From the IMG/VR virus record IMGVR_UViG_3300006484_000020, positions 1-42,419 of that record: DNA of 42,419 nt; one strand, written 5' to 3'. Every line of letters begins with the position of its first letter. The first letter of the stretch is position 1. The position numbers and the translations under genes were made by a program. The DNA is from a virus. The notes beneath the pieces were generated by a model. It saw nothing but the letters and a program-made list of their open reading frames with translations. It did no database searches and was not told the origin of the DNA. Below are positions 10,145-29,695 of the stretch, piece after piece.

Positions 10145-13100
10145 ATGGCTCAAGTAAGATTCCTAGACCAAGTTCCCGTAGGCGTATATAACGTAGATCC
10201 TAATAATACCGGTGGTGGTACTATTGATATTTACCAAAATGGTACATTAGTTAGTTCTAGTGTTCCTTTTTTAAACTTTTCCGGTTCAGTTGCATTAACA
10301 ACATTTGATACAACTGGTGTAACCGTATATGTTTCCGCATCAAGTGTAGGATTTCCTTTTTCAGGTTCAGCTGTAATTACTGGTTCGCTAGTAATTTCCG
10401 GATCTTCACAACCTCTTATACTACAAACTTTACCAGTACAAGCTGGCCCATATGTAGTAACATATAATCCAACTACAGGATTAGTAGGATATGTAAATTC
10501 AAGTTCAGGTACAAGTGGTGTTAATGGTTCGAATGGAACAGCAGGTGTTGCTGGTACATCAGGCACATCAGGCACATCAGGCACAAATGGATTATCAGGT
10601 TCAACAGGTTCATCAGGAACTAGTGGAGCTAATGGAACAAATGGTACAAACGGCACAAACGGAAATTCAGGTTCAACTGGTTCTTCAGGTACCTCAGGTG
10701 TTAATGGAACAAATGGTACCTCAGGCACAAACGGGAACTCAGGTTCAACAGGTTCATCAGGAACTAGTGGAGCTAATGGAACAAATGGTACAAACGGCAC
10801 AAACGGATTATCAGGTTCAACGGGTTTTTCAGGTACCTCAGGTGATAACGGTACAAACGGTACAAACGGTACAAACGGATTATCAGGTTCAACAGGTTCT
10901 TCAGGAACTAGTGGAGCTAATGGAATAAACGGTACTTCAGGTACAAACGGATTATCAGGTTCAACGGGTTCTTCAGGAACAAGTGGAATAAATGGTACTA
11001 ATGGAACTTCAGGTGTTGCCGGTAATAGTGGATTAAGTCAAACTTCAGGTACATCAGGCACTTCAGGTACAAACGGCACATCAGGTGTTGCTGGTACTAA
11101 TGGAAATTCAGGAACAACAGGTACTTCAGGTACTTCAGGTAATAATGCAACTTCAGGTAATGCTGGAACTTCAGGTTCAAGTAATACAACAGGTACTTCA
11201 GGTACTTCAGGTAATAATGCAACTTCAGGTAATGCTGGATCCTCAGGTGCTAGTGCTACAAGTGGTTCAACAGGTACTTCAGGAAGTAGTGGTGCTAATG
11301 GTAATGCTGGATCTTCAGCTCTTTCAGGTACATCAGGAACAAGCGGTTCTAATGGAACTTCAGGAGTTATTGGTACAAATGGACTTAGTCAAGAAGCAGG
11401 TACATCAGGAACAAGTGGTTCTAATGGAACTTCAGGTGTTGCAGGTGCATCAGGTTTAAGCCAAACATCAGGTACTGCTGGTTCATCAGGTACTACTGGT
11501 TCATCAGGAAATGCTGGAAATAATGGTTCATCAGCTTTAAGTGGTACTTCAGGTACTTCAGGTTCAAACGGTACATCAGGTGCCGCAGGTAATAGCGGAT
11601 TAAGTAATACAAGTGGAACAAGTGGTTCTACGGGAACAAATGGTTCAGCAGGTAATGCTGGAAATAGCGGAGGAAGTTCTACCTCAGGTACTTCAGGTTC
11701 AACAGGTACTTCAGGTTCAACAGGTAATGCAGGTTCAGGAGGAGCAAGCGCATTAAGTAGTACTTCAGGTTCTACAGGTTCAAGTGGTTCATCAGGTTCA
11801 TCAGGAGCTGCAGGAAATAGTGGATTAAGTGCATTAAGTGGCACTAGTGGTTCAACTGGTTCAAACGGAACCTCCGGAAATATAGGTAATAATGGATCCT
11901 CAGCATTAAGTGGAACAAGTGGTTCAACTGGTTCATCAGGTTCAAATGGTGTAGATGGAAATAGTGGGTTGAGTGCTACTTCAGGAACAAGTGGTTCAAC
12001 AGGTACTAATGGTTCAAGTGGAAATGCAGGAGTAAGTGGAGCAAGTTCAACAGCAGGTTCAAGTGGTTCAACTGGAACAAATGGTTCAAGTGGTAACGCA
12101 GGAAATAGTGGAGCTAGTGCTTTAAGTGGAACAAGTGGTTCTACAGGTTCATCAGGTTCATCAGGTTCAAATGGTGCTGCTGGAAACAGTGGTTTAAGTA
12201 ATATAAGTGGCACTTCAGGTTCAACCGGATCTAATGGATCTAGTGGATTAAATGGTTCACAAGGTACTAGTGCAGAAAGTGGAACAAGCGGCTCTACAGG
12301 TTCCTCAGGAACTTCAGGTTCATCAGGTGCTGCCGGTGTTTCAGCATTAAGTGCTACCTCAGGAACAACGGGTTCATCAGGAACAGTTGGTTCAGCAGGT
12401 GTAGCAGGATCATCAGCTCTTAGCGCTACTTCAGGAACATCAGGTTCAAATGGTTCCTCAGGTATTACAGGAACTAGTGGTTTAAGTGCAGAAAGTGGGA
12501 CTTCAGGTTCAAGTGGATCTAATGGTTCAAGTGGTGTTATTGGTACAAATGGTTTAAGTACATTATCAGGAACAAGTGGTTCTACTGGTTCATCAGGAAC
12601 AAGTGGTTCCACAGGTGTTGCTGGAGGTAGTGGTTTAAGCAACACTTCAGGTACTACAGGATCTTCAGGAACTTCAGGTTCAGCAGGTATTGCAGGTGTT
12701 TCAGCATTAAGTAGTACATCAGGATCTACAGGTTCAAATGGTACTTCAGGTATTGAAGGTACATCAGGTTTAAGTGCATTAAGTGGTACATCAGGTTCAA
12801 CAGGATCTAATGGTACTTCAGGAAATATAGGTAGTAATGGAACAAGTGCTCTTAGTAGTACTAGCGGTTCAACTGGTTCAAACGGATCTAGTGGCTTAGC
12901 AGGTTCACAAGGTACTAGCGCATTAAGTGGAACTAGTGGTTCTGCAGGTTCAAATGGATCTACAGGTATAGCAGGAACAAATGGATTAAGTGCAGAAAGC
13001 GGAACAAGTGGTTCAACTGGTTCTTCAGGAACTTCAGGTTCAGCAGGTTTTGCAGGTCAATCAGGTTTAAGTTCAACTTCAGGTACTTCAGGTTCAACAG

Positions 13101-16100
13101 GTACAAATGGTTCAACTGGAAATGCAGGAACAAGCGGAGCAAGTAATACAGCAGGTTCTAGTGGTTCTACTGGTTCAAACGGATCAAGTGGAAATGCTGG
13201 AAACTCCGGTGCAAGTGCCTTATCAGGTACTAGTGGTTCTACAGGTTCAAATGGCACCTCAGGTTCAGCAGGTATTGCTGGAAATAGTGGTTTAAGTGCA
13301 ACAGCTGGTACAAGCGGTTCAACAGGATCTAATGGTTCAACTGGAGTCGCAGGTACATCAGGTGATAGTAATACAAGTGGTACAGCGGGTTCAACTGGAA
13401 CTTCAGGTTCAAGTGGAAACGCTGGAAATAGCGGAGCAAGTGCATTAAGTGGAACAAGTGGTTCTACAGGTTCAAATGGTACAAACGGTGCTGCTGGAAA
13501 TAGTGGTATTTCAAATATAAGTGGAACTTCAGGTTCTACAGGTTCAAATGGTTCTTCAGGTATAGCAGGTTCATCAGGAGCAAGTGAATTAAGCGGTACC
13601 TCAGGCAGTTCAGGTACAAACGGTACTTCAGGTAATGCTGGAAATAATGGAGCTTCAGCACTTTCAGGTACTTCAGGTTCAACTGGTTCATCCGGATCTA
13701 ATGGTTCAGCAGGTGCAGCCGGTAACAGTGGTTTAAGTGCTACAGCAGGTACTTCAGGTTCTACAGGTTCAAATGGGTCATCAGGAATAGCAGGTTCTTC
13801 AGGAGCTTCAGCATTAAGTGGAACATCAGGTTCAACTGGTACTAACGGTTCTTCAGGTGCTGCTGGTTCAAATGGAACAAGTGCTTTAAGTGGAACTTCA
13901 GGTTCAACTGGTTCTAGTGGCACTTCAGGTTCAGCAGGTGCTGCTGGAAATAGCGGTTTAAGCGCTACATCAGGCACTTCAGGTTCAACGGGTACAAATG
14001 GTTCAACAGGTAACGCTGGAAGCAATGGGGCAAGTGCATCATCAGGTACTTCAGGTTCTACAGGAACTAATGGTTCTACAGGAGCAGCAGGTACTTCAGG
14101 TGCAAGTCAAACTTCAGGAACAGCTGGCTCTTCAGGAAATAGTGGAACCTCAGGTTCAACAGGAACTTCAGGTTCAGCAGGTGCTGCTGGTGACTCAGGA
14201 TTAAGTCAAACATCAGGTACTTCAGGATCATCAGGTTCTGTAGGTACCTCAGGAAATATAGGAACATCAGGCCTTAGCAGAACTTCAGGTACAAGTGGTT
14301 CAACAGGTACAAACGGTACTTCAGGAGATGGGGACACAGGAACTAGTGGTTTAAGCAGAAGTTCAGGATCAAGCGGTTCAACAGGTACTAATGGTTCTTC
14401 AGGTAATGCTGGAAACAGTGGTGCTAGCGCATTAAGTGGTACTAGTGGTTCTACAGGTTCAAGTGGTTCAAATGGTTCTGCAGGTGCTGCAGGTAATAGC
14501 GGATTAAGTGCATTAAGTGGCACATCAGGTTCTTCAGGAACAAATGGTTCAACAGGTAATGCTGGTACAAATGGTGCTAGCCAATTATCAGGTACCTCAG
14601 GTTCTTCAGGAACAAATGGTTCAACAGGTGCTGCAGGTACTTCAGGTGCTAGTACAACCTCAGGAACCGCAGGTTCATCAGGAACTTCAGGTTCAACAGG
14701 TACAAACGGTACTTCAGGTAATGCTGGAAATAGTGGCTCAAGTGCATTATCAGGTACTTCAGGATCTTCAGGTTCAAATGGTTCAAACGGGGCTGCTGGA
14801 AATAACGGAGCAAGTGCATTAAGTGGCACAAGTGGTTCAACTGGTTCAAGTGGTACTTCAGGTTCAGTAGGTGCAGCAGGTAACAGTGGGGCTTCAGCAT
14901 TAAGTGGAACTTCAGGTTCATCTGGATCTAATGGTTCAAATGGCGCTACAGGAATTGCAGGTACAAGTGGCGCTTCATCTACTTCAGGCACAGCAGGAAG
15001 TTCAGGAACAAGTGGTTCAACAGGTACTAACGGTACTTCAGGTGCCTCAGGTAATAGTGGTTTAAGTACTACTTCAGGAACATCCGGTTCAAGTGGTACT
15101 AATGGTTCAACAGGTAATGCTGGAACATCAGGAGCAAGTAACGCATCAGGTTCAAGCGGTTCTACAGGTTCAAATGGATCAAGTGGAAATGCAGGTAATA
15201 ATGGTGCTTCAAATATAAGTGGAACTTCAGGTTCTTCAGGTTCAGCAGGTACAACAGGTGCTGCTGGAACTAACGGTTTAAGTCAATTATCGGGAACTTC
15301 CGGTTCATCAGGAACTAACGGTTCAACAGGTATTGCAGGTACATCAGGTGCTAGTGTTACATCAGGTACTGCTGGTTCATCAGGAACAAGTGGTTCAACT
15401 GGTACAAATGGTTCATCAGGAATTGCAGGTAATTCAGGTGCAAGTGCTACAAGTGGAACAAGTGGTTCAACAGGTTCAAATGGATCTAGTGGAGCAGTTG
15501 GTTCAAGTGGAGTCTCAGCCCTTTCAGGAACTTCAGGTTCTACTGGTTCTAATGGTACTTCAGGTAATACTGGTACCTCAGGATCAAGTGCCTTAAGTGG
15601 TACTTCAGGTTCAACAGGTTCAAGTGGAACTAGTGGTTCAGCAGGTGCGGCTGGAAATAGCGGATTAAGCTCTACCTCAGGTACAACAGGTTCTTCAGGA
15701 ACATCAGGTTCCGCAGGAGCCGCAGGAAATAGTGGATTAAGTCAAACATCAGGAACAAGTGGTTCTACAGGTTCAAATGGATCCTCAGGAGTTGCAGGTA
15801 CCTCAGGAGCAAGTGCTTTAAGTGGCACTAGTGGTTCAACTGGTACAAATGGTTCATCAGGTATAGCAGGTTCACAAGGTGCTTCAGCACTTTCAGGAAC
15901 TTCAGGTTCAACAGGTTCTTCAGGAACATCAGGTTCAGCAGGAGTAGCCGGAGCTTCAGCTATTAGCGCAACTTCAGGCACAACTGGTAGTTCAGGAACA
16001 ACAGGATCTGCGGGTGCATCAGGTCAAAGCGGATCATCCTCAACTTCAGGAACATCAGGTTCAACAGGAACTACAGGTTCTTCAGGTATAGCAGGATCTA

Positions 16101-22100: not shown

Positions 22101-24130
22101 CTTCAAACGTAAGTGGTACAAGTGGAACTACAGGTTCAAACGGTACTTCAGGAAACGCAGGTGCTGCAGGAAATAGCGGATTAAGTGCCACTTCAGGTAC
22201 ATCAGGTTCAACAGGTTCAAATGGATCTAATGGTGCTGCAGGTAACAGTGGAAACAGTGCATTATCCGGTACATCAGGTTCAACAGGTACTTCAGGATCC
22301 TCAGGTAATAATGGTGCCGCCGGAAATAGTGGAAACAGCGCAGCATCAGGTACAACTGGTTCCTCAGGAACAAATGGTAGTAATGGTGCTACTGGTAACT
22401 CAGGTAACTCAGGTAACTCAGGAGTATCAGGAACAACAGGTTCAAACGGAACTTCAGGTAATAATGGCGCTTCAGGCAACTCGGGTAACTCAGGTACTAA
22501 TGGAACCTCAGGTTCAAATGGTAACTCGGGTAACTCAGGAAACTCAGGTACTAACGGAACAACAGGTTCAAACGGAACTTCAGGTAATAATGGTAATGCA
22601 GGAAACAGTGGTTTAAGTGGATTATCAGGTACAACAGGTTCAAACGGATCTTCAGGTAATAATGGAGGCGCAGGTGCTTCAGGAGTAAGTGCAGCATCCG
22701 GTACTTCAGGTTCAACAGGTTCAAACGGATCTTCAGGTAACAACGGTGCAGCGGGAAACAGTGGAAACAGCGCATTATCAGGTACAACTGGTTCATCAGG
22801 AACAAATGGTAGTAATGGTGTTGCAGGTAACAGTGGAAATAGCGCATTATCAGGAACAACAGGTTCAAACGGAACTTCAGGCAACAATGGTAATAACGGT
22901 GCCTCAGGAAACTCAGGAAATTCAGGAACTAATGGAACCACAGGTTCAAATGGTACTTCAGGAGCAGCAGGGAATTCAGGAAACTCAGGATTATCAGGTA
23001 CAAACGGAACCACAGGTTCAAACGGTAATAATGGTGCTGCAGGAAACTCAGGAAATAGTGGTTTAAGTGGAACTTCAGGTTCAAACGGTACTTCAGGAGC
23101 AGCAGGAAATTCAGGAAACTCAGGATTATCAGGTACAAACGGAACCTCAGGTTCAAATGGTAATAACGGAGGAGCAGGAGCAAGTGGAATAAGTGGTGCT
23201 TCAGGAACTTCAGGTTCAAATGGTTCAAGTGGTAACAATGGAAACGCAGGTGCTTCAGGTAACTCAGGACTATCAGGAACAAATGGAACTACAGGTTCAA
23301 ACGGTACTTCAGGAGCTGCAGGTAACTCAGGAAACTCAGGATTATCAGGAACAAATGGTACAAGTGGTTCAGCTGGTAATAATGGAGGTGCAGGTCCTAG
23401 TGGAGTAAGTGGTGCTTCAGGAACTTCAGGTTCAAACGGATCTTCAGGTAATAATGGTAACGCAGGTGCTTCAGGAGTAAGTGCAGTATCAGGAACTACT
23501 GGAACTTCAGGTTCAAATGGAAACTCAGGTAACAATGGTGCTAGTGGAGCTAATGGTACTTCAGGAGTAAATGGTTCAAATGGTACTACTGGAGCTTCGG
23601 GTACAAGTGGTCAATCAATCAATGGTACATCAGGTATTAGTGGTGGTGTATTTACTAACCAACCTGATTACTTAGTACGCACAACAAGTACAACAACAGT
23701 ACAAAGTGTATCGTTCTTATATGCTGATATGACAAACAGCAGATTAGGTGTTGGTACAACTTCTCCATCATATCCTCTACACGTAAGCGGTAACGTAAGT
23801 GGTGTATCTATATACGCATCAAATGATATTCAAGCATTCTCTGATAGAAGAGTAAAAGGTGATATACAAATAATAGAAGATGCTATCAATAAAATTAACC
23901 AAATAAATGGTGTAACATTTACAAGATTAGATGATAAAGAAAATTATAAAGGTAGACATGCAGGTGTAATTGCACAAGAAGTAGAATTAATTCTCCCAGA
24001 AGTAGTTAATACAGATGCTATAACAGGAATGAAATCAGTAGCATATGGTAACTTAAATGCTTTATTAATTGAAGCAATTAAAGAATTAAGTAAAAAAGTC
24101 AAAGATTTAGAAGATAAATTAAATAAATAA
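10145..24130 (+). CDS. Giant collagen-like fibre protein with S74 intramolecular chaperone
   Basis: This 4,661-residue protein has three parts. Residues 1-121 form a non-repetitive, beta-rich N-terminus (MAQVRFLDQVPVGVYNV) of a type that anchors phage fibres to the particle. Residues 122-4501 are almost entirely Gly-X-Y triplets made of Gly, Ser, Thr, Asn and Ala, nearly free of proline, aromatics, Lys and Cys. Residues 4502-4661 form a C-terminal head whose last 96 residues match the endosialidase-type chaperone (Peptidase_S74): SDRRVKGDIQIIEDAI from S4566, then HAGVIAQEVELILPEVV and a terminal Leu/Lys coiled coil. S74 domains trimerise fibres and then usually cut themselves off just before that Ser. 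A trimeric collagen-like shaft is therefore expected. Context (between tail-completion and glycosyltransferase genes) suggests a tail or neck fibre, or a whisker; its exact site on the virion is unknown. Confidence 0.9.
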   Translation: MAQVRFLDQVPVGVYNVDPNNTGGGTIDIYQNGTLVSSSVPFLNFSGSVALTTFDTTGVTVYVSASSVGFPFSGSAVITGSLVISGSSQPLILQTLPVQAGPYVVTYNPTTGLVGYVNSSSGTSGVNGSNGTAGVAGTSGTSGTSGTNGLSGSTGSSGTSGANGTNGTNGTNGNSGSTGSSGTSGVNGTNGTSGTNGNSGSTGSSGTSGANGTNGTNGTNGLSGSTGFSGTSGDNGTNGTNGTNGLSGSTGSSGTSGANGINGTSGTNGLSGSTGSSGTSGINGTNGTSGVAGNSGLSQTSGTSGTSGTNGTSGVAGTNGNSGTTGTSGTSGNNATSGNAGTSGSSNTTGTSGTSGNNATSGNAGSSGASATSGSTGTSGSSGANGNAGSSALSGTSGTSGSNGTSGVIGTNGLSQEAGTSGTSGSNGTSGVAGASGLSQTSGTAGSSGTTGSSGNAGNNGSSALSGTSGTSGSNGTSGAAGNSGLSNTSGTSGSTGTNGSAGNAGNSGGSSTSGTSGSTGTSGSTGNAGSGGASALSSTSGSTGSSGSSGSSGAAGNSGLSALSGTSGSTGSNGTSGNIGNNGSSALSGTSGSTGSSGSNGVDGNSGLSATSGTSGSTGTNGSSGNAGVSGASSTAGSSGSTGTNGSSGNAGNSGASALSGTSGSTGSSGSSGSNGAAGNSGLSNISGTSGSTGSNGSSGLNGSQGTSAESGTSGSTGSSGTSGSSGAAGVSALSATSGTTGSSGTVGSAGVAGSSALSATSGTSGSNGSSGITGTSGLSAESGTSGSSGSNGSSGVIGTNGLSTLSGTSGSTGSSGTSGSTGVAGGSGLSNTSGTTGSSGTSGSAGIAGVSALSSTSGSTGSNGTSGIEGTSGLSALSGTSGSTGSNGTSGNIGSNGTSALSSTSGSTGSNGSSGLAGSQGTSALSGTSGSAGSNGSTGIAGTNGLSAESGTSGSTGSSGTSGSAGFAGQSGLSSTSGTSGSTGTNGSTGNAGTSGASNTAGSSGSTGSNGSSGNAGNSGASALSGTSGSTGSNGTSGSAGIAGNSGLSATAGTSGSTGSNGSTGVAGTSGDSNTSGTAGSTGTSGSSGNAGNSGASALSGTSGSTGSNGTNGAAGNSGISNISGTSGSTGSNGSSGIAGSSGASELSGTSGSSGTNGTSGNAGNNGASALSGTSGSTGSSGSNGSAGAAGNSGLSATAGTSGSTGSNGSSGIAGSSGASALSGTSGSTGTNGSSGAAGSNGTSALSGTSGSTGSSGTSGSAGAAGNSGLSATSGTSGSTGTNGSTGNAGSNGASASSGTSGSTGTNGSTGAAGTSGASQTSGTAGSSGNSGTSGSTGTSGSAGAAGDSGLSQTSGTSGSSGSVGTSGNIGTSGLSRTSGTSGSTGTNGTSGDGDTGTSGLSRSSGSSGSTGTNGSSGNAGNSGASALSGTSGSTGSSGSNGSAGAAGNSGLSALSGTSGSSGTNGSTGNAGTNGASQLSGTSGSSGTNGSTGAAGTSGASTTSGTAGSSGTSGSTGTNGTSGNAGNSGSSALSGTSGSSGSNGSNGAAGNNGASALSGTSGSTGSSGTSGSVGAAGNSGASALSGTSGSSGSNGSNGATGIAGTSGASSTSGTAGSSGTSGSTGTNGTSGASGNSGLSTTSGTSGSSGTNGSTGNAGTSGASNASGSSGSTGSNGSSGNAGNNGASNISGTSGSSGSAGTTGAAGTNGLSQLSGTSGSSGTNGSTGIAGTSGASVTSGTAGSSGTSGSTGTNGSSGIAGNSGASATSGTSGSTGSNGSSGAVGSSGVSALSGTSGSTGSNGTSGNTGTSGSSALSGTSGSTGSSGTSGSAGAAGNSGLSSTSGTTGSSGTSGSAGAAGNSGLSQTSGTSGSTGSNGSSGVAGTSGASALSGTSGSTGTNGSSGIAGSQGASALSGTSGSTGSSGTSGSAGVAGASAISATSGTTGSSGTTGSAGASGQSGSSSTSGTSGSTGTTGSSGIAGSSGNSSLSGSSGSTGSNGSSGVAGTSGLSALSGTSGSTGSSGTSGSAGASGNSGLSATSGTSGSTGSNGSSGAAGTSGASALSGTSGSTGSSGTSGSAGIAGASALSSTSGSTGSSGSSGSNGVAGNSGLSNTSGTSGSTGTSGSAGAAGASALSATSGTSGSSGTVGSSGNAGTSGASNTSGSAGTSGSTGTSGSAGAAGNSGLSNTSGTSGSTGTNGSAGNAGNSGLSNTSGTSGSTGTNGSSGNAGTSGISALSGTSGSTGSNGSSGNAGNSGASALSGTSGSTGSNGTSGSAGIAGLSALSATSGTSGSSGTVGSSGNAGTNGLSQASGTSGSSGSAGTSGAVGTNGLSQLSGTSGSSGTNGSTGAAGTSGASTTSGTAGSSGTSGSTGTNGTSGNAGNSGASATSGTSGSTGTSGSAGAAGNSGLSQTSGTSGSTGSNGSSGNAGNSGASALSGTSGSTGSSGSSGSSGAAGLSGASATSGTAGSSGTSGSTGTSGSAGNAGNSGLSFTSGTSGSTGSNGSNGNAGNSGASALSGTSGSTGSSGTSGSAGAAGNSGLSQTSGTSGSTGTNGSSGNAGNSGASALSGTSGSSGSNGSNGVSGNAGTSGASATSGTAGSSGTSGSTGTSGSAGVAGNSGLSQTSGTSGSTGTNGSTGNAGTSGASALSGTSGSTGSSGSSGSNGVAGNSGASALSGTSGSSGSNGSAGAAGNSGLSATSGTSGSTGTNGSTGNAGNSGASALSGTSGSSGSNGSNGATGNAGTSGASATSGTSGSTGTNGSAGVAGNSGLSQTSGTAGSSGTSGTSGNNGTSGLSSTSGSAGSSGSNGSSGADGTSGLSRTSGTSGSTGTNGSSGNAGNSGASALSGTSGSTGSSGTSGSAGVAGNSGLSATSGTSGSTGTSGSSGAAGLSGASATSGTSGSTGSNGSSGAAGTSGASSTSGTAGSSGTSGSTGTSGSSGASGVAGTSGASATSGTSGSAGTGGSSGISGASGISAVSGTSGSSGSNGSSGNTGSNGASALSGTSGSTGSNGSSGNTGNSGASALSGTSGSTGSSGTNGSAGVAGVSALSATSGTTGSSGTNGSTGVAGASALSATSGTSGSTGTNGSSGNAGNSGASALSGTSGSSGSTGSNGAAGASGTSNISGTSGTTGSNGSNGNAGVAGNSGLSATSGTTGSSGTTGSAGIAGNSGASALSGTSGSSGSAGSNGAAGANGTSNISGTSGSTGTNGSSGNAGNSGASALSGTSGSTGSSGTNGSAGVTGNSGASAASGTSGSSGSNGSNGATGANGTSGASATSGTSGSTGTNGSSGNAGNSGASALSGTSGSTGSNGSNGAAGANGTSNISGTSGTTGSAGSSGNAGAAGNSGLSSTSGTSGSTGTNGSSGAAGNSGLSAISGTSGTTGSNGSNGAAGANGTSNVSGTSGSTGSAGSNGNAGIAGNSGLSATSGTSGSTGTNGSSGNAGNSGASALSGTSGTTGSSGTNGSAGVAGNSGLSALSGTSGTSGSNGSNGAAGNSGASALSGTSGSTGSSGTNGSNGISGNSGASAASGTSGSSGSNGSNGATGANGTSGASATSGTSGSTGTNGSTGAAGNSGLSQTSGTSGSTGSNGTSGAIGTSGASQTSGTAGSSGTSGSTGTNGTSGAAGNSGLSQTSGTSGSTGTNGSNGNAGNSGASALSGTSGSTGSNGSNGAAGNSGTSNISGTSGSTGSTGSNGAAGASGTSNVSGTSGTTGSNGSNGNAGVAGNSGLSATSGTSGSTGSSGTTGAAATSGQSTQSAVSGSSGSSGTSGSAGAAGNNGASAASGTSGSSGTTGSNGAAGANGTSNISGTSGTTGSNGSSGNAGAAGNSGLSATSGTSGSTGTNGSAGNAGNSGASSVSGTSGTTGSNGSSGGAAVAGVSTISATSGSSGSNGTNGAAGNSGTSNISGTSGTTGSNGTSGNAGAAGNSGLSATSGTSGSTGTNGSSGNAGNSGASAVSGTSGTSGSNGSNGAAGANGTSNVSGTSGTTGSNGTSGNAGAAGNSGLSATSGTSGSTGSNGSNGAAGNSGNSALSGTSGSTGTSGSSGNNGAAGNSGNSAASGTTGSSGTNGSNGATGNSGNSGNSGVSGTTGSNGTSGNNGASGNSGNSGTNGTSGSNGNSGNSGNSGTNGTTGSNGTSGNNGNAGNSGLSGLSGTTGSNGSSGNNGGAGASGVSAASGTSGSTGSNGSSGNNGAAGNSGNSALSGTTGSSGTNGSNGVAGNSGNSALSGTTGSNGTSGNNGNNGASGNSGNSGTNGTTGSNGTSGAAGNSGNSGLSGTNGTTGSNGNNGAAGNSGNSGLSGTSGSNGTSGAAGNSGNSGLSGTNGTSGSNGNNGGAGASGISGASGTSGSNGSSGNNGNAGASGNSGLSGTNGTTGSNGTSGAAGNSGNSGLSGTNGTSGSAGNNGGAGPSGVSGASGTSGSNGSSGNNGNAGASGVSAVSGTTGTSGSNGNSGNNGASGANGTSGVNGSNGTTGASGTSGQSINGTSGISGGVFTNQPDYLVRTTSTTTVQSVSFLYADMTNSRLGVGTTSPSYPLHVSGNVSGVSIYASNDIQAFSDRRVKGDIQIIEDAINKINQINGVTFTRLDDKENYKGRHAGVIAQEVELILPEVVNTDAITGMKSVAYGNLNALLIEAIKELSKKVKDLEDKLNK
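10508..23647 (+). repeat. 13.1-kb degenerate Gly-X-Y coding repeat
   Basis: The DNA repeats with a 9-base flavour (GGT-TCA-ACA and similar) and a higher unit of about 72-81 bp encoding eight or nine triplets, typically GTS GST GTN GSS GNA GNS GAS followed by a triplet lacking Gly such as ALS, ATS, QTS or NTS. Copies are degenerate through synonymous and X/Y substitutions, not exact. The first ~190 residues and the last ~400 residues of the array lack most Gly-less triplets. The biased composition leaves long open frames on the other strand and in another forward frame; these are shadows. Length divided by unit size gives very roughly 170 units; I did not count them. Confidence 0.95.
23840..24127 (+). 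other. S74 self-cleaving chaperone domain of the giant fibre
   Basis: This marks the C-terminal domain within the fibre gene, residues 4566-4661. The Ser-Asp-Arg-Arg-x-Lys start is the usual cleavage boundary of S74 chaperones; the conserved GVIAQEVE and LNALLIEAIKEL blocks follow. Cleavage would remove about 96 residues and leave a short C-terminal tip (residues 4502-4565, containing TNSRLGVGTTSPSYPLHVSG) on the mature fibre. Confidence 0.85.
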
Positions 24131-24132
24131 AA

Positions 24133-24831
24133 ATGGCAGTTCCAACTTCAAGTATAAATTTTAGTGATATATGGAGTGAAGCTAATGGTGCTTATTCTAC
24201 AGGTATCCTTAGCTTAAATACTATGAGTTTTTTTTCATATTTTACAGGTCTAAATGGTTCTGGTAATCAACCTGATAATAATTGGGGACAAGGTGAAGGA
24301 TCAGGAGCAAATAGAATATATCTTACTACTGCAAAAACTACAAATATAAAAGTAAGTGATTTTTCAGGATTAAATTATTTTTATGATAGTAATTATGATA
24401 GATTAATAACTGTTAATGGTGCCTATAGTGGTCCTTCTCCCATAATGCCCCCAGACCCACCAGATTGTTATGATTTTAATATTAGATTAACCCTTTACGA
24501 TAGTTCATTAACATATATATATGCTGCTGGAGGATTCTCCCTAGCTCCATTTTTCCCTACTTTTGGAGCTGACATACAGCAAGATACTATTACCCCACTA
24601 ATAAACACTTATTATTGGGTTTTAGACATCCAAACATCTCCTTCATACCCTGGTCTTGCAGGAGCTGTAACTGCAAATTTTTTTATTAATGGTAGTCCAT
24701 TTTTTACAAGTGCAACGGTAAATAATGGAGGTAATACTTATGACTCAACAACTTATGGCACTGCAACAATAGCTCTTAATTCACCATTAGCAAATAAAAC
24801 AGGTTCACTTTGGGATGTTACTATGAGCTAA
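24133..24831 (+). CDS. Putative fibre-associated virion protein
   Basis: This 232-residue protein begins MAVPTSSINFSDIWSE, a start reminiscent of the phage tail-fibre/virion N-terminal pattern with a Ser-x-Ile-x-Phe/Leu-x-Asp-Ile core. It is rich in Tyr, Asn, Gly and Ser with predicted beta structure throughout and a short Pro-rich loop (PIMPPDPPD, about residues 98-106). There is no signal peptide or long membrane helix. It starts two bases after the stop of the giant fibre gene, so it is co-expressed with it and could be a fibre tip, adhesin or fibre-anchoring protein. I do not recognise a specific family. The next gene has its own ATATTTATT site 26 bases after this stop. Confidence 0.6.
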   Translation: MAVPTSSINFSDIWSEANGAYSTGILSLNTMSFFSYFTGLNGSGNQPDNNWGQGEGSGANRIYLTTAKTTNIKVSDFSGLNYFYDSNYDRLITVNGAYSGPSPIMPPDPPDCYDFNIRLTLYDSSLTYIYAAGGFSLAPFFPTFGADIQQDTITPLINTYYWVLDIQTSPSYPGLAGAVTANFFINGSPFFTSATVNNGGNTYDSTTYGTATIALNSPLANKTGSLWDVTMS

Positions 24832-24857
24832 GTTTGGAACTTTAAATTTTCTTTAGT

Positions 24858-24866
24858 ATATTTATT
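24858..24866 (+). promoter_or_regulatory. ATATTTATT (one mismatch to the late motif) before the glycosyltransferase cassette
   Basis: This site differs from the recurrent 9-mer only at the last base and lies 14 bases upstream of the ATG at 24881. It is the only degenerate copy among the nine upstream sites, which could mean weaker expression of enzymes than of virion proteins; that is inference. Confidence 0.45.
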
Positions 24867-24880
24867 GGAAATAAGTTATT

Positions 24881-27538
24881 ATGAAAAAATTGTTATATGT
24901 TGCACCGCATCTATCAACTGGCGGACTCCCTCAATATTTAACTAAAAAAATTGAATTACTTAAAGATGAATTTGAAATTTATCTTGTAGAATGGGTTGAT
25001 TGTACTGGAGGTATTCTTGTAGTTACAAAAAATAAAATCCAAAACCTTATTGATCCGGATAAATTCTTTACATTAGAAGAAAATAAAATAGAACTGATTG
25101 ATATTATTAATCAAGTCCAACCTGATATTATCCATTTGGAAGAAATTCCTGAGTTTTTTATGGATGAAGAAGTAGCCAAACAAATTTATAAACAAGATAG
25201 AAGTTATATCATTATAGAAACGTCACATGATTCTTCTTATAACACAGAAGATAAACGTTTCTTTCCTGATAAATTCATGTTTGTATCTCAATGGCAAATA
25301 AATCAATATAAAGATATTAACGTTCCTAGCGTATTAGTCGAATATCCTATTGAATATATAGAACGTCCTGACCGTGAAGAGGCATTGCGTAATCTACAAT
25401 TAGATCCCGCTAAAAAACACGTTTTACATGTTGGATTATATACATCTCGTAAAAATCAAGCTGAATTTTTTGAATATGCTAAACAATTTCCTGATGTGGA
25501 ATTTCATAGTTTAGGAAACCGAGCAGATAATTTTAAATGGTATTGGGAACCATTAGCTCAAAACACTCCCCCAAATTTAACATGGTGGAACGAACGTACA
25601 GACGTTGATAAATTCTATCAGGCAATGGATTTATTCTTGTTTACCTCTCGTGGACATGATAATGATAAAGAAACAATGCCATTAGTTATTCGTGAGGCCA
25701 TTTCAAATCAAATCCCTACATTAATATATAATCTCCCAGTTTATTTAAATTATTTTGATAAATTTAAAACTATTAATTATTTAAAGTTTGATGATTTTAA
25801 AATTAATTGTAATAAAATTGCTGAAAAATTAGGTGTTAAAGAATCTAATTTAAATGAAGAAATTTTTATATTATCAACTTTCCCAATAAGTGATACTATA
25901 GTTGAAACTACATTAAAAACAATTGATTCAATTCATGCTAGAGGAACAAAAGTATTAGTTACATCACATATTCCTGTTCCATTTGCTATAGAAGCAAAAG
26001 CAGATTATGTTGTTGTTGATAACAATAATATTTTAACTAAACATTCATATTATTGTAATTATTGGGCTGATCTTCCTGATCATAAAGTCCATATTAATTT
26101 AAGAGGAAATGATAATGATTTATATCATGGCCCTAGTGTTTATTCAAATTATGTAAACGGTGCTGCTTTAGCTAAAAATTTAGGATATAAAAAATTATTC
26201 TTTATCAATTTTGATTACACTATTCAAAATACAAAACATATTAATGAAGTATCTGAAATATTAGATAATAAAAAAGCATACTTTGGTAAATATAGAGCAT
26301 CAGAAGGTGATGCTTTACATACTTATTTTTATGCTTCCAACTCAGATTTCTTTTTAGATCATGTTCACCAAGTATTTAATACTGAAGATTATGAACATTT
26401 ACGTTTCCAATTAGGAAGTGAAAGTAATGGTTTAGAAAATATGTGGCATCATATATTTAAACGAAGTTCAGATCAAATTTATTTTGAAGATATTGAAATA
26501 TTTAATCAAAAAAGTATAGAAACTTTTGATCATTCTGATTTTTCCCAAGTAGAATATTACACTGTACTATCTACTAATATTCCTAACACATTTGCTCCTT
26601 ATATTAGAATTTCTAATAGTAAAGAATCAAGATTAATTCAAATTAAAGTACTTGATAAGGATAAAAACGAAGTATTCTTTGATGAATTAAACATAGAGGG
26701 TAAAACAGATTATTATAAAATCCTTCCATACGAAGAAGGAATGGAGGTAGTATTTACTATAAGTAATTACCATAAAATCCTAAAAATCACCACAATCCAG
26801 GTAACAAATTTAGAATTTAATGGAAGTATTGAAGTAAAAAATCATTTACCTAAAATTAAATTAATGCATTTAGTTACTGAACCTGAAACTAATGAAAAAG
26901 AAATCCGTTCAATAGATAATATTAAAGATTTCTGTAAAAAAACAGGTATATTATACGAACAACGAGTTAATGAAATATGGAAAGGGCTTCCACCTAAAGA
27001 AACATGTGCACGTCCACACGAAATTCAAGAAGTACCTGGTTATTATAAATTAGCTCCTGGACATTATGGTTGTTATTTAGCTCATAAAAATGCTATATGC
27101 GCTGAGGATAATACAGACTATGATTTTGTATTAATCGTAGAAGGCGATGTTATAGTAGATAGTGATTATCAAGAGTTATATGAATCTTTAATTCGATTTA
27201 ATAAATTATCATATCAAACAGATATGGATGTTATTGGATTTGGAAATCCATGGCAAGATAGAAATTTAAATGGACCTAAAATTGATGACATTTATACAAA
27301 TGTAACCCCTTTTATCCCAGCACAATCATATTTAATTAATAATATTAAAACTAAAAAAATTAAAACATTATTAGAAACTATGACTTGGGATGCTATTGAT
27401 TTATGGATGTGTAATGTTGCTAAATTAAAAATAGGAACAGCCGAAAAAATTTATACAAAACATCTCCCAGGTTATAGTATTATAGAACAAACTGTTAAAG
27501 ATGCTTCAACCGATAACCCTTTAATATTTACAACATAA
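24881..27538 (+). CDS. Multidomain glycosyltransferase (GT4-like N-terminus, GT25-like C-terminus)
   Basis: This 885-residue protein appears to be three modules. Residues 1-310 look like a GT-B/GT4 enzyme: KKLLYVAPHLSTGGLPQYLT at the N-terminus, HVLHVGLYTSRKNQ near 180-193 starting the nucleotide-sugar domain, and REAISNQIPTLIYNLP near 270 as the acidic donor-binding helix. The middle, about 325-660, begins with EIFILSTFPISDTIVETTLK, a possible second alpha/beta sugar-transferase-like domain, and ends in a beta-sandwich-like stretch. The C-terminus, about 665-885, resembles GT25-type transferases: APGHYGCYLAHKNAI near 721-735 and the metal-binding-type VEGDVIVDSD (753-762, with E754 and D756). 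It is first in a three-gene glycosyltransferase cassette, sharing a one-base TAATG overlap with the next. Substrate unknown; the adjacent Ser/Thr-rich fibre is an obvious candidate. Confidence 0.72.
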   Translation: MKKLLYVAPHLSTGGLPQYLTKKIELLKDEFEIYLVEWVDCTGGILVVTKNKIQNLIDPDKFFTLEENKIELIDIINQVQPDIIHLEEIPEFFMDEEVAKQIYKQDRSYIIIETSHDSSYNTEDKRFFPDKFMFVSQWQINQYKDINVPSVLVEYPIEYIERPDREEALRNLQLDPAKKHVLHVGLYTSRKNQAEFFEYAKQFPDVEFHSLGNRADNFKWYWEPLAQNTPPNLTWWNERTDVDKFYQAMDLFLFTSRGHDNDKETMPLVIREAISNQIPTLIYNLPVYLNYFDKFKTINYLKFDDFKINCNKIAEKLGVKESNLNEEIFILSTFPISDTIVETTLKTIDSIHARGTKVLVTSHIPVPFAIEAKADYVVVDNNNILTKHSYYCNYWADLPDHKVHINLRGNDNDLYHGPSVYSNYVNGAALAKNLGYKKLFFINFDYTIQNTKHINEVSEILDNKKAYFGKYRASEGDALHTYFYASNSDFFLDHVHQVFNTEDYEHLRFQLGSESNGLENMWHHIFKRSSDQIYFEDIEIFNQKSIETFDHSDFSQVEYYTVLSTNIPNTFAPYIRISNSKESRLIQIKVLDKDKNEVFFDELNIEGKTDYYKILPYEEGMEVVFTISNYHKILKITTIQVTNLEFNGSIEVKNHLPKIKLMHLVTEPETNEKEIRSIDNIKDFCKKTGILYEQRVNEIWKGLPPKETCARPHEIQEVPGYYKLAPGHYGCYLAHKNAICAEDNTDYDFVLIVEGDVIVDSDYQELYESLIRFNKLSYQTDMDVIGFGNPWQDRNLNGPKIDDIYTNVTPFIPAQSYLINNIKTKKIKTLLETMTWDAIDLWMCNVAKLKIGTAEKIYTKHLPGYSIIEQTVKDASTDNPLIFTT

Positions 27539-28488
27539 TGAAAATCTGTCAAGTCGATCCGGGTTGTGGTATTCCAATCCCACCTCCAGCATGGGGAGCT
27601 ATTGAAAAAATTGTTTGGGAATTTACCCAAAATCTAAAAGAATTAGGACATGAAGTAGATATTAAAATGTCAGGTCAAATTAATCCTGGAGAATATGATA
27701 TAGTTCATTGTCACGTAGCTAATCTAGCAATTCAATTAGCAGAAAGAGGTATACCATATGTTTACCAATTACACGACCATCATGCTTTCTTTTATGGTAA
27801 GGATTCTCATGTTTATAAAGAAAACCTCCAAGCAATTGAAGGTTCACTTATATCTTTAATGCCTGCTAGATTTTTAGTTGACTACTTTGAAAGTGATAAA
27901 TGTGTTTATTTCTCTCATGGTGTTAACACAAATGAATTATATCCAAAACAAAAAAATACTCCTGCTAATCCAAAACTATTAATGATAGCTAATAATGGTT
28001 TAGGTGGAGATCCTACATTTGATAGAAAAGGTTTTGCTTTAGGGTTAGGGTTAGCAATGCTTAATAATTTAGAAATTACAATAGCAGGCCCTTCAGATAA
28101 TAAAAGATTTTTTAATGGACACCTGTGGATGTTAGGTTACCCTAAACTAAACTTGGTTTTTGATACTCCTAATAGTAAATTATTGGAATTATATCACACC
28201 CACGATATTTTTATACACCCAACTATTTTAGAAGCTGGACATCCTAATTTAACAATGATTGAAGCAGCAGCTGCTGGTTTACCTCTTATTGCTAACTGGG
28301 AAATTGAAACAGATTTTCACGGTGCTTGGAGATCTCCACGTGATGTATTTGAAATGGATAGAGGTTTAAAAGATATATTAAGTAATTGGTCATTATATAG
28401 AGATAAATTAGTAGTAACATCTCAAGAATTATCATGGTTTAACCGTTCTAAAGAATTAATTAAAGTATATGAAAGAAATATTGATTAA
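27538..28488 (+). CDS. GT4-family glycosyltransferase
   Basis: This 316-residue GT-B glycosyltransferase begins MKICQVDPGCGIPIPPPAWG followed by AIEKIVWEFTQNLKELGHEV, the typical GT4 acceptor-side Rossmann start with a Gly/Pro-rich loop. YDIVHCHVAN (about 54-63) and YQLHDHHAF (about 80-88) are standard features, as is YFSHGVNTNELYP (about 123-135). DRKGFALGLGLAM and LEITIAGPSDN start the donor-binding domain. FIHPTILEAGHPNLTMIEAA is the conserved acidic donor-sugar motif. The protein is a little short for GT4 but has both domains. It overlaps the previous gene by one base and the next by 20 bases, so the three enzymes are made together. Sugar and acceptor are not predictable from sequence alone. 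Confidence 0.82.
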   Translation: MKICQVDPGCGIPIPPPAWGAIEKIVWEFTQNLKELGHEVDIKMSGQINPGEYDIVHCHVANLAIQLAERGIPYVYQLHDHHAFFYGKDSHVYKENLQAIEGSLISLMPARFLVDYFESDKCVYFSHGVNTNELYPKQKNTPANPKLLMIANNGLGGDPTFDRKGFALGLGLAMLNNLEITIAGPSDNKRFFNGHLWMLGYPKLNLVFDTPNSKLLELYHTHDIFIHPTILEAGHPNLTMIEAAAAGLPLIANWEIETDFHGAWRSPRDVFEMDRGLKDILSNWSLYRDKLVVTSQELSWFNRSKELIKVYERNID

Positions 28489-29668
28489 GGAGTATAATAA
28501 CACCCCCCAATTAAACATTCCAAATAAGGAAAATAATAATACATTTAAGTTTAATTTTTTAAAAGGAGCATTTTTAGAAATTATAGGTTCTAACTCTAAA
28601 ACATATGTAGCTAAATTTTTTAATAAATCTAAAGATGAATTAGTATATGAAGCAGAGATTACTAACAATATGTGGACCAAACCAGGTATTGAATATTTCA
28701 TTAATTGGAGAATTGAAGTTTACGATAAAGAAAATGATGAATTAGTATTCGAACATGATTTTAATGCTAGAGAAAAAAGAGTTTATATTCATTTAGAGTC
28801 CTCAGCATTAGGTGATACCTTAGCTTGGTTTCCGTTTATAGATGAATTTAGAAAAGTTCATAAATGTCATGTAATATGTTCAACATTTCACAATGAATGG
28901 TTTGAAAAAGAATACCCTGAATTAGAATTTGTTACCCCAGGTACTGAAGTACATGATTTATATGCTATGTACAATATTGGTTGGTTTTATAATGAAGATA
29001 GAACTATAAATAATTTAAAAATCCCAATTGATTTTAAACAACATCCATTAGGAGAAACATCAACATCTGTATTAGGATTATCTTATGTAGAAACTAAACC
29101 AAAAATTAATGTTCCTAATAAGGGAAGACAAATTCATGGTAAATATGTTGTTATTGCACCTCACGCTTCAGCACATGCTAAATATTGGAATTACCCAGGC
29201 GGATGGCAAACAGTAATTGATTATTTAAATGCAAAAGGATATAAAGTAGTAATAATCACCCAAGAAAAATTAGGTGATAAATGGCATGATTCAAAATTAG
29301 GAGGTAAATTAAAAGGAGTAATTAATAAAACAGGTAATTATCCGATTGAAGATAGAATGGTAGATATTAAACACGCTGATGCTTTTATAGGTGTTGGTAG
29401 TGGGTTATCTTGGTTAGCATGGTCTATAGGTACACCTGTAATACTAATCTCAGGATTTAGTTTACCATATAGTGAGTTTCTTGATTGTGAACGTATATTT
29501 AACTATGATACTAATGTATGTAATGGATGTTTTAATAGAGAATGGTTAAATCCGGGTGATTGGGAATGGTGTCCTGATCATAAAGATACACCACGTCAAT
29601 TTGAGTGTACAAAAACTATTAAACCTTCTCAAATAATTGAATCTCTTAACAAACTTCTTAATATTTAA
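28469..29668 (+). CDS. TibC/Aah-like O-glycosyltransferase (autotransporter heptosyltransferase family)
   Basis: This 399-residue protein resembles the bacterial autotransporter heptosyltransferase family (TibC, Aah), which O-glycosylates Ser residues of repetitive surface proteins. It has an N-terminal beta-rich domain (about 20-100), then IHLESSALGDTLAWFPFIDE (107-126), the family-type start of the catalytic domain. APHASAHAKYWNYPGGWQTV (230-249) and IKHADAFIGVGSGLSWLAWS (300-319) follow, as in GT9-like transferases. Near the C-terminus four cysteines, C351, C354, C368 and C380, recreate the CxxC...C...C arrangement that binds iron in TibC. The start at 28469 overlaps the GT4 gene by 20 bases. 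It lies directly downstream of a giant Ser/Thr-rich repeat fibre, so O-glycosylation of that fibre is a strong hypothesis. A transferase acting on host glycans or another virion protein remains possible. Confidence 0.8.
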   Translation: MKEILIKEYNNTPQLNIPNKENNNTFKFNFLKGAFLEIIGSNSKTYVAKFFNKSKDELVYEAEITNNMWTKPGIEYFINWRIEVYDKENDELVFEHDFNAREKRVYIHLESSALGDTLAWFPFIDEFRKVHKCHVICSTFHNEWFEKEYPELEFVTPGTEVHDLYAMYNIGWFYNEDRTINNLKIPIDFKQHPLGETSTSVLGLSYVETKPKINVPNKGRQIHGKYVVIAPHASAHAKYWNYPGGWQTVIDYLNAKGYKVVIITQEKLGDKWHDSKLGGKLKGVINKTGNYPIEDRMVDIKHADAFIGVGSGLSWLAWSIGTPVILISGFSLPYSEFLDCERIFNYDTNVCNGCFNREWLNPGDWEWCPDHKDTPRQFECTKTIKPSQIIESLNKLLNI

Positions 29669-29687: not shown

Positions 29688-29695
29688 TCGTGAAT

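Follow-up and report, generated by a model that had tools for sequence, protein, structure and literature searches.

The window, the whole stretch of 42,419 nucleotides of viral DNA analyzed here, carries a gene cassette that appears to modify the phage's own tail fibre. Judging from sequence comparison, and with a probability of roughly 0.78, a TibC/Aah-type enzyme (GTC) would O-glycosylate Ser, perhaps also Thr, in a giant Gly-X-Y fibre, two further glycosyltransferases (GTA and GTB) would extend these sugars, and the sugars would stiffen the proline-poor shaft. What the sequences show is the order of the genes, the family to which GTC belongs, its catalytic and metal residues, and an association between its clade and Ser/Thr-rich Gly-X-Y proteins. 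This association occurs in phages and in bacteria and goes beyond synteny. Since this enzyme clade tends to adjoin Ser/Thr Gly-X-Y proteins, the phage very probably glycosylates its own fibre. Genome comparison, though not chemistry, lends good support to the original prediction of a cassette that modifies the fibre.

As listed in Table 1, the fibre gene is followed by one small gene and then by three overlapping ORFs, and ORF and domain matches confirmed the predicted arrangement of a giant Ser/Thr Gly-X-Y fibre, a small gene and three glycosyltransferase genes. As GTA is multi-domain, the total for the cassette is about five glycosyltransferase domains. Searches with the 232-aa product of the small gene gave no hits, whether in Pfam at E up to 1 or in PHROGs and NCBIfam at E up to 0.1.

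Table 1. Features of the fibre and glycosyltransferase cassette and its downstream neighbors.
Feature	Position	Strand	Basis or remark
Gene of the giant collagen-like tail fibre (4,661 aa)	10145..24130	+	Single ORF
Gly-X-Y region, residues 122-4491	10508..23617	+	Mostly 24/27-aa units
Peptidase_S74 / endosialidase-type intramolecular chaperone domain	23840..24007	+	PF13884, E 5e-17; PHROG tail fibre families
232-aa protein between fibre and transferases	24133..24831	+	ORF
GTA, multi-domain glycosyltransferase	24881..27538	+	PF00534, 35.9 bits (cut-off 26.4)
GTB, GT4-like glycosyltransferase	27538..28488	+	Sub-threshold Pfam GT4; two PHROG glycosyltransferase families
GTC, TibC/Aah-type O-heptosyltransferase, collagen-associated clade	28469..29668	+	Family match, alignments, tree
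GTC Asp116 codon (TibC Asp110), candidate catalytic base	28814..28816	+	Alignment to 4rap
GTC iron-finger Cys351, 354, 368 and 380 (TibC Cys339/342/358/370)	29519..29608	+	Alignment to 4rap
83-aa coiled-coil-like protein	29690..29941	+	Precedes tail sheath in many relatives
Tail sheath, lineage anchor	29998..31722	+	PHROG 23, E 6e-70

The fibre ORF, one open frame, contains 111 matches to the Pfam Collagen family (PF01391). Counting only runs of at least three, 1,284 Gly-X-Y triplets cover 3,852 of the 4,661 residues, a long repeat of the collagen-like kind. The X and Y positions are not proline-rich as in other collagen-like proteins: the entire protein has 13 prolines, while Ser or Thr occupies 1,647 of 2,568 X/Y positions (64%; Ser alone 1,099). 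Exactly one in-register triplet with its Gly replaced (ALS 45 times, ATS 23) makes up 142 of the 157 gaps between Gly-X-Y runs. Identity at a lag of 24 residues was 0.656, far above chance (0.312 +/- 0.006 for shuffled triplets). The Collagen matches, the lag-24 test and the triplet counts together rule out chance or an annotation artefact as the source of the repeat. The C-terminal PF13884 match (62 bits, cut-off 22) marks the protein as a tail fibre of the S74 type, and this domain is typical of trimeric fibres.

GTC scored 333.4 bits against TIGR04414 (hepto_Aah_TibC; curated equivalog cut-off 200) over profile positions 3-373 of 374, matched the TibC structure 4rap at E 5.7e-60, and contains a Pfam GT9 domain above cut-off. 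By these matches it is a full-length member of the BAHT/TIGR04414 family in the broad sense, and the expectation that the last transferase would resemble TibC/Aah and carry a CxxC...C...C site was borne out, all four Cys being present. Asp116 and the four Cys were invariant in 22/22 phage rows of alignment A2, and in a second alignment they were likewise present in every row, of which 22 are from phages, 14 from bacteria and 8 of the autotransporter type. According to the available text of PMC4358343, the roles of the catalytic Asp and the iron-finger Cys are established for TibC, BAHTs transfer heptose to Ser and form a ring-shaped dodecamer, and the known targets of TibC/Aah enzymes are secreted proteins of large size that carry the modification on Ser; the mapping published there for TibC found Ser modified and Thr not. 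GTC resembles the BAHTs that act on TibA and AIDA-I in its near full-length homology, catalytic Asp and four iron-finger Cys. It differs from them in belonging to a separate clade, in its Ser/Thr Gly-X-Y partner, in being phage-borne, and in being often fused to or clustered with other glycosyltransferases. It also has Gly in place of Pro300, the stereoselectivity determinant of TibC. In relatives the GTC-type enzyme is fused to GT4 (6/22), methyltransferase (1/22) or deacetylase (1/22) domains. A role of the transferases in DNA modification was set aside because the family nearest to GTC consists of protein O-heptosyltransferases.

GTA combines a GT4 GT-B domain (residues 1-320), a GT-A domain from about residue 322, and a GT25-like GT-A domain at about 656-864. 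Its predicted-structure models had mean pLDDT of 81 and 80 and aligned with GT4 enzymes at VIA Z up to 22.4. PF01755 gave 19.5 bits on GTA, below the cut-off of 24, and matched 10 of 11 members at E up to 0.1. The collagen galactosyltransferase COLGALT1, with two GT-A domains in tandem of which the second is GT25, is a candidate relative of the C-terminal part of GTA. Foldseek placed COLGALT1 first for the whole GTA and second for a GTA fragment, but at an rmsd of about 20, and its VIA Z of 14.5 at rmsd 17 tied with that of other GT-A enzymes; the whole-protein rmsd in these comparisons was 17-22. Profile searches of PDB sequences with GTA returned nothing, or nothing relevant.

Outside phages, the GTC-type enzyme was found at 16 loci in bacteria or archaea, and 14 of these also contain Ser/Thr Gly-X-Y ORFs, a count that leaves out two phage contigs (L655, L656) and one locus without the enzyme (L673). 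As these loci were found through an alignment of phage enzymes, they are a deliberate sampling of the GTC clade. In 12 of the 16 genomes, strict Ser/Thr Gly-X-Y tracts lay at most 6 kb from the enzyme, and the full 63.3 Mb of genome sequence contained only three further sites; the reversed control pattern matched in 2/16 (22 matches). A Gly-X-Y neighbor accompanied seven of eight enzymes of the GTC type and none of ten of the autotransporter type (p 2.5e-4), and an eleventh autotransporter-type enzyme also lacked one (0/11). The remaining GTC-type cellular enzyme had no such neighbor even within 19 kb. The tree, which does not include TibC itself, split the phage and phage-like bacterial rows from eight classical (autotransporter-type) rows with an SH-aLRT of 100, and GTC did not group with the autotransporter-paired enzymes. 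L681 groups with the bacterial rows despite having no Gly-X-Y neighbor. Wide classical loci, judged by eye, had giant strand-loop-strand ORFs in 5/7 and Gly-X-Y in 0/7; the fibre beside the GTC cassette is a Gly-X-Y protein, not a strand-loop-strand autotransporter.

Within the phage lineage of the window, dereplication left 19 enzyme loci with 7 kb or more of upstream sequence, and 18 of them had a Gly-X-Y ORF (14 of the Ser/Thr type, four not). The Ser/Thr share of X and Y was 0.68 at 52 enzyme-positive loci, dereplicated at 95%, compared to 0.38 at 11 enzyme-negative loci (13 minus the near-copies L235 and L237; p 2e-4). This difference sits in X (0.69 vs 0.26, p 4e-5) and is absent in Y (p 0.23). 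Support for the predicted co-occurrence of fibre and transferases was mixed: in a set of 86 sheath-bearing loci, only one of 24 with Ser/Thr collagen lacked the enzyme, but the Ser/Thr Gly-X-Y gene was missing in range at 20 of 43 enzyme-bearing loci, 12 of which had a hydroxylase instead and eight neither. For any Gly-X-Y protein, 29 of the 86 dereplicated loci had both, 14 the enzyme only, nine Gly-X-Y only and 34 neither, with a p of 2.7e-5 that ignores relatedness and comes from a set mixing sheath-fetched and enzyme-fetched loci. On the sheath tree, in eight independent pairs differing in enzyme, Ser/Thr collagen changed the same way in 3.2 and the opposite way in 0.7; for any Gly-X-Y the values were 3.9 and 1.7 of eight, and neither result was significant. 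A second phage group comprised 24 loci with full flanks; Gly-X-Y was present at 11 of them, and 11 of the 13 without it by our criterion carried a giant ORF of about 1,500-2,500 aa instead. In Microcystis phage Mel-JY01 the enzyme is located elsewhere, not before the sheath, yet it lies beside a Ser/Thr Gly-X-Y ORF. The Flavobacterium immuto phages gave the best cultured sheath matches; the collection that includes them had no enzyme match, and 33 kb of their sequence contained no Gly-X-Y.

Viral contigs were also sampled by fibre composition alone, among 80 listed of at least 120 matching stretches for each of two DNA patterns (Ser/Thr Gly-X-Y and Gly-Pro-X), and only those of at least 25 kb were scanned whole for the enzyme. 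Among these listed matches, TIGR04414 matched 23 of 48 Ser/Thr contigs (22 over cut-off) and 0 of 43 Gly-Pro-X contigs, with L400 and L467, which hit both patterns and carry the enzyme, counted as Ser/Thr (otherwise Gly-Pro-X would be 2/45). A reading-frame check left out 6/48 (not Ser/Thr Gly-X-Y; three with the enzyme) and 6/43 (not proline-rich), after which the enzyme was present in 20/42 Ser/Thr and 0/37 Gly-Pro-X contigs among the matches listed (p 2e-7). The assembled part of the other 22 of these 42 listed contigs showed no such enzyme. In 14 of the 23 enzyme-bearing contigs among the listed matches, a Ser/Thr Gly-X-Y ORF lay inside the ~17-20 kb region around the enzyme; with one such gene per contig, the fraction of each contig that this region takes up would predict 7.3 (P about 0.001).

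From these data we infer the glycosylation itself, the residues and sugar involved, a substrate shared by GTA and GTB, the triple helix and the benefit. The phage makes a very long tail fibre with a Gly-X-Y shaft almost free of proline; in the infected cell, GTC would attach the first sugar to many repeat Ser and perhaps Thr, the likeliest candidate being a heptose that the host supplies as an ADP-sugar; GTA and GTB would then lengthen or decorate it. The sugars may stiffen or stabilize the proline-lacking shaft, and the virion would gain a glycan surface. No sugar-nucleotide gene was seen on inspection of the window by eye. HldE domain II, the sole ADP-heptose enzyme sought, was over cut-off in 0/50 related records (10 sub-threshold matches), with no match in G101, which holds a copy of the window's cassette (L009). 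ADP-heptose, if it is the donor, is therefore probably host-made, and the idea of a self-contained system was not supported.

It could be speculated that the Gly-Thr-Ser repeat is an acceptor scaffold and not a triple helix, that is, a poorly folded Ser/Thr stalk that becomes a mucin-like extended bottle-brush once glycosylated. The bacterial partner ORFs, some secreted-looking by eye, are mostly short; their Ser/Thr Gly-X-Y stretches comprise 18-46 triplets and in several cases consist almost entirely of (Gly-Thr-Ser)n or (Gly-Ser-Ser)n. The fibre's near lack of proline would also fit, as would its length, since an extended triple helix would reach about 1.25 micrometres, very long for a tail fibre. 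However, a scaffold needs neither Gly at every third position over so many residues nor single in-register gaps, the fibre ends in a domain of the trimeric-fibre type, and a hydroxylase-type gene joins the cassette in relatives with proline. We consider the scaffold rather unlikely.

Another possibility is that GTC targets a different virion or host protein, such as the 232-aa neighbor or another tail protein, and that the Gly-X-Y link partly reflects shared ancestry. The enzyme of some relatives does adjoin a giant ORF without Gly-X-Y (in L378 with an S74-like end by eye), and the tree-controlled pair test was not significant. The proximity tests within contigs and within genomes depend on lineage in a different way, however, and phmmer recognized the 232-aa gene in just 22 ORFs, compared to 240 for GTC, at the same loci; we consider a different target improbable. 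We regard it as quite improbable that the transferases remodel host surface polysaccharide for superinfection exclusion, the adjacent fibre merely sharing a host-interaction island. GT4 and GT25 families are also used for polysaccharides, and GTA and GTB, being GT4/GT25-like, could serve host glycans; glycosyltransferases near tail fibres are read this way in the part of PMC7029224 available. Such an island leaves unexplained the link to Ser/Thr Gly-X-Y composition, bacteria included, and GTC belongs closest to a family acting on protein, with its catalytic and iron-finger residues kept.

The preferred reading, in which the fibre is the substrate, has partial precedents. BclA, a Bacillus spore protein, is O-glycosylated on Thr in its collagen-like region by other enzymes. 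In Mimivirus, too, a viral enzyme, L230, adds sugar to collagen-like proteins of the virus itself, as far as PMC4691112 was available; its acceptor is hydroxylysine, which the hydroxylase domain of L230 produces, whereas GTC is TibC-type, with Ser (perhaps Thr) as likely acceptor and bacterial hosts. Glycosyltransferases of mycobacteriophages Che8, Corndog and Myrna modify capsid or tail-tube proteins of the virion, as we propose here, but the targets are different virion proteins and the available portion of PMC12363180 mentions no collagen-like fibre. EPclA of E. coli O157:H7 prophages is also a phage tail-fibre-type collagen without hydroxyproline; in the accessible text of PMC3368898 its stability is explained by charged residues together with Pro in X, and the protein carried no glycan when produced recombinantly. 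In the fibre described here, proline and charged residues are both nearly absent. The phage literature, where available to us, reads glycosyltransferase genes beside fibres as modifiers of host surface or DNA. Our analysis offers such genes a concrete, testable role and makes Ser/Thr Gly-X-Y proteins a likely new substrate class for an enzyme family known from autotransporters.

A broader proposal, which we hold to be evenly balanced, is an unrecognized class of sugar-built collagens in phages and bacteria, in which O-glycosylated Ser/Thr replaces (hydroxy)proline through a separate BAHT clade. Phages would carry it as an exchangeable cassette with two chemistries: Ser/Thr shafts that lack proline would be served by transferases alone, and shafts that contain proline would have a 2OG hydroxylase in addition. 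Bacteria, methanotrophs among them, have short pairs of two genes that could show whether sugar replaces proline in a collagen-like rod; one such pair is the Methylobacter luteus Gly-X-Y gene beside its BAHT (L657). In the phage lineage, a 2OG hydroxylase gene was present at 9/13 proline-type and 2/50 other loci (p 1.4e-6 at a proline threshold of 0.07 picked after viewing the values; p was 4e-6 at 0.05, 6e-5 at 0.10 and 5e-4 at 0.20). On the sheath tree, hydroxylase and proline changed together in 5.5 and oppositely in 0 of seven independent pairs (median p 0.03). Among independent viral contigs with loci of at least 4 kb the difference was not significant (7/90 proline-type vs 2/86 Ser/Thr-type, p 0.17), and the gene was absent from the loci with the window's own cassette (L009, L010, L089 and L092). 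The use of viral prolyl-hydroxylase genes is called cryptic in the available text of PMC9301287, and these data suggest a possible role for them too. The nearest solved structure is the PKHD hydroxylase PiuC, not a collagen hydroxylase. PF13640 matched the two hydroxylases scanned at 53 and 55 bits (cut-off 27), and the HxD...H iron site of this 2OG-Fe(II) prolyl-hydroxylase-like protein (H117, D119 and H174) was invariant in 12/12.

By its genes, the 42.4-kb virus record is a piece of a T4-like myophage (the sheath was matched and the rest assigned by eye). The fibre gene reads through 4,661 codons without interruption; its product has 111 matches to the Pfam collagen profile and carries an S74 chaperone domain at its C-terminus. 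The shaft comprises 1,284 Gly-X-Y triplets over 158 runs, with Ser or Thr at 64% of X/Y positions (1,099 Ser within the repeats) and nearly no proline. Units are mainly 24 or 27 residues long, and self-identity at lag 24 is 0.656 versus 0.312 in shuffles. Most between-run gaps (142 of 157) are one Gly-replaced triplet that keeps the register, with Ala in place of Gly in 83 (ALS, ATS). Our guess is that these triplets are a planned flexible joint or a mark of folding register; their periodicity is not general, because the L347 fibre, a viral locus outside the sheath-anchored set, is nearly pure Gly-X-Y in the part examined.

Features of the window and of other loci, with positions in each
Locus	Position	Strand	Feature
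Window	6128-6862		PhoH-like gene amid structural genes (by eye); annotated likewise in Flavobacterium immuto phage (L156)
Window	10145-24130	+	Fibre gene
Window	10508-23617		In-register Gly replacement each 24 or 27 shaft residues (ALS, ATS, QTS, NIS)
Window			232-aa gene, following the fibre
Window	24881-27538		GTA, glycosyltransferase
Window	27538-28488		GTB, glycosyltransferase, overlapping GTA
Window	28469-29668		GTC, glycosyltransferase, overlapping GTB
Window			83-aa gene, following GTC
Window			Tail sheath gene, following the 83-aa gene
L123	7656-11731		Fibre and three transferases both absent between conserved upstream genes and sheath (as in L124); a 193-aa gene occupies the place
L199	1-6724		Long row of glycan-type genes ahead of the BAHT gene: FAD oxidoreductase (UDP-galactopyranose mutase-like by eye), FkbM-like and GT-like genes
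L155	4747-8430		Microcystis phage Mel-JY01 (PP395634.1): "methyltransferase FkbM" gene with C-terminal BAHT domain
L155	2-3052		Mel-JY01: collagen-like ORF at record start that lacks a single-gene annotation, with two hypothetical CDS drawn on the opposite strand and a third over the ORF end
L160	1572-2171		Mel-JY01: CDS annotated prolyl 4-hydroxylase, away from the fibre cassette stretch
L669	3596-3934		Nearly pure (Gly-Thr-Ser/Thr)n tract in a short bacterial protein
L660	11211-11912		As L669
L663	8868-9818		As L669

Profile and structure-sequence matches identify GTC as a full-length enzyme of the TibC/Aah O-heptosyltransferase family (BAHT, profile TIGR04414). Asp116, equivalent to TibC Asp110, and Cys351, Cys354, Cys368 and Cys380 are invariant in an alignment of 22 phage rows; a second alignment, with 22 rows from phages, 14 from bacteria and 8 of autotransporter type, shows the same invariance. 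Unlike TibC, GTC has Gly in place of Pro300, the residue named as TibC's stereoselectivity determinant (PMC4358343). GTA combines a GT4 enzyme (residues 1-320, VIA Z up to 22.4) with two GT-A domains behind it, the last of them GT25-like; 10 of 11 GTA members have a GT25 Pfam match (E up to 0.1), the window's GTA being below cut-off. The 232-aa gene has no recognised relatives in the profile libraries searched. Other phages have the GTC domain joined to GT4 (6 of 22), a methyltransferase (1) or a deacetylase (1) in one protein, and FkbM and GT2 genes are added to some cassettes, a pattern consistent with an elaborate glycan. Ten of 50 phage contigs (G123, G124, G024 and others), most of them enzyme-bearing, also have small frames of 74-177 aa that resemble HldE domain II, none of which reaches the curated cut-off.

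Within the window's lineage, 19 dereplicated enzyme loci extend 7 kb or more upstream, and 18 of these have a Gly-X-Y ORF (14 of Ser/Thr type, 4 not). Of 86 dereplicated loci anchored on the sheath gene and reaching 6 kb or more upstream, 23 hold both the enzyme and a Ser/Thr Gly-X-Y ORF, 20 have only the enzyme, one has only the collagen and 42 have neither; 12 of the 20 enzyme-alone loci have a hydroxylase gene and 8 have neither. A tree-controlled test of the pairing was under-powered and not significant (3.2 vs 0.7 of 8 pairs). In a second phage group, 24 enzyme loci are fully flanked; Gly-X-Y accompanies the enzyme in 11 of them, and 11 of the other 13 have instead a giant ORF of ~1,500-2,500 aa, scored as lacking Gly-X-Y by our criterion, with two inspected directly.

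Two further surveys depend less on the window's lineage. We scanned a viral collection for DNA encoding eight Gly-(Ser/Thr)-(Ser/Thr)-like or six Gly-Pro-X triplets and searched whole, with TIGR04414, the contigs of at least 25 kb among the matches listed. Among these, the enzyme was found in 23 of 48 Ser/Thr-pattern contigs (22 over cut-off) and 0 of 43 Gly-Pro-X contigs, where L400 and L467, which match both patterns, were assigned to the Ser/Thr set (otherwise the Gly-Pro-X count is 2 of 45). After checking of translations the counts, again among the matches listed, were 20 of 42 versus 0 of 37 (p 2e-7). Because the two contig sets come from different phages, proximity within contigs weighs more: 14 of 23 contigs had a Ser/Thr Gly-X-Y ORF within the ~17-20 kb fetched around the enzyme, against 7.3 expected (P about 0.001) if each contig has one such gene, several giving a higher expectation.

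Alignment of the phage enzymes retrieved 19 loci from 84,980 species genomes. L655 (sheath and whole cassette) and L656 (fibre and all three transferases) were set apart, as they look like phage contigs inside MAGs; their filing, under a Winogradskyella and a Flavobacteriales MAG, hints at Flavobacteriia hosts for this phage lineage. With one enzyme-less locus also removed, 16 cellular loci were kept, of which one, on a 7.5-kb Rickettsiaceae MAG contig, may be of viral origin. Fourteen of the 16 have Gly-X-Y ORFs rich in Ser/Thr, with 18-46 triplets, often directly adjoining the enzyme and several with signal peptide- or lipobox-like starts (by eye). A pattern count over all 63.3 Mb of these genomes found strict Ser/Thr tracts no more than 6 kb from the enzyme in 12 of 16, a figure matched by a direct count in the fetched loci, and only three such sites elsewhere; the G137 strict site is on a different contig from its enzyme. 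The strict pattern was unmatched in two genomes, the neighbours in G136 and G137 are looser (Ser/Thr 0.66-0.68), and a reversed control pattern matched in two. The short tract proteins of L669, L660 and L663 would make good minimal test substrates.

The order of Methylobacter (201 genomes) has 12 over-cut-off enzymes in 11 genomes, and that of the Polaromonas MAG (399 genomes) has 7 in 6. Eight of these 19 are of phage-like type (304-327 bits), four of them already among the loci found with the phage-enzyme alignment, and seven of the eight have a Ser/Thr Gly-X-Y ORF beside them (in a stretch of ~4 kb); three of the four newly found enzymes have this neighbour, and the fourth lacks it even in 19 kb. 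None of the 11 classical-type enzymes (484-663 bits) has a Gly-X-Y neighbour, three being covered by ~4 kb only; giant strand-loop-strand ORFs are visible by eye in five of seven classical loci viewed over a wider stretch. The contrast of 7/8 with 0/10, leaving aside a second G231 gene, gives p 2.5e-4. A quick tree, which did not include TibC itself, placed 22 phage and 14 bacterial phage-like rows opposite 8 classical rows across one branch (length 0.86, SH-aLRT 100).

These comparisons offer strong genome evidence for the fibre as GTC's substrate, and we consider it highly probable that, as in the original prediction, GTC acts on the phage's own fibre, as a member of a collagen-associated BAHT clade. 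Before the fibre trimer folds, or while it does so, GTC would put the first sugar on Ser and perhaps on Thr of the fibre, and GTA and GTB would lengthen it; the TibC sites are reported to be Ser, not Thr (PMC4358343). A less probable alternative is that the Gly-Thr-Ser repeat is a mucin-like, poorly folded acceptor stalk that is extended once glycosylated, rather than a triple helix. This alternative is kept alive by the computed shaft length of ~1.25 micrometres for an extended triple helix, an unusual value for a tail fibre.

Glycosylation of collagen-like proteins by a virus-encoded enzyme is already known from mimivirus L230 (PMC4691112), as is that of phage virion proteins from mycobacteriophages (PMC12363180). 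Among the papers listed from a literature collection largely without subscription journals and bioRxiv, we came across no case of a TibC-type enzyme paired with a Gly-X-Y protein; within the same coverage there was no report of a heptosyltransferase in collagen-like glycosylation, titles and abstract beginnings on phage, heptosyltransferase and collagen or on TibC and phage contained nothing on it, and the remaining listings offered no closer precedent.

Composition also differs with the enzyme. Median Ser/Thr and Pro at X/Y are 0.68 and 0.001 in 52 enzyme-positive loci versus 0.38 and 0.21 in 11 enzyme-negative loci (p 2e-4 and 1e-4), the Ser/Thr contrast sitting in X positions, not Y. Seven of the 52 are exceptional, with Ser/Thr below half, and all seven have a 2OG-Fe(II) enzyme gene (PF13640-type match, intact HxD...H site) ahead of GTC, with the closest Gly-X-Y ORF 1.9 to 2.9 kb away. 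Among 63 dereplicated Gly-X-Y loci, this hydroxylase is present in 9 of the 13 whose proline reaches 7% versus 2 of the 50 below that level (p 1.4e-6). Of the 7 independent pairs on the sheath tree, 5.5 go along with this link and none goes against it (median p 0.03), and the trend in unrelated viral loci is not significant. The closest solved structure belongs to a PKHD hydroxylase rather than to a collagen prolyl hydroxylase, so the suggestion of prolyl hydroxylation comes from company and composition. Hydroxylase genes are absent from all 24 sheath loci with a Ser/Thr collagen; L347, L440 and L449, which lie outside these 24, combine the two. The module therefore seems to exist in two chemistries, of which the window's cassette is the proline-free version.
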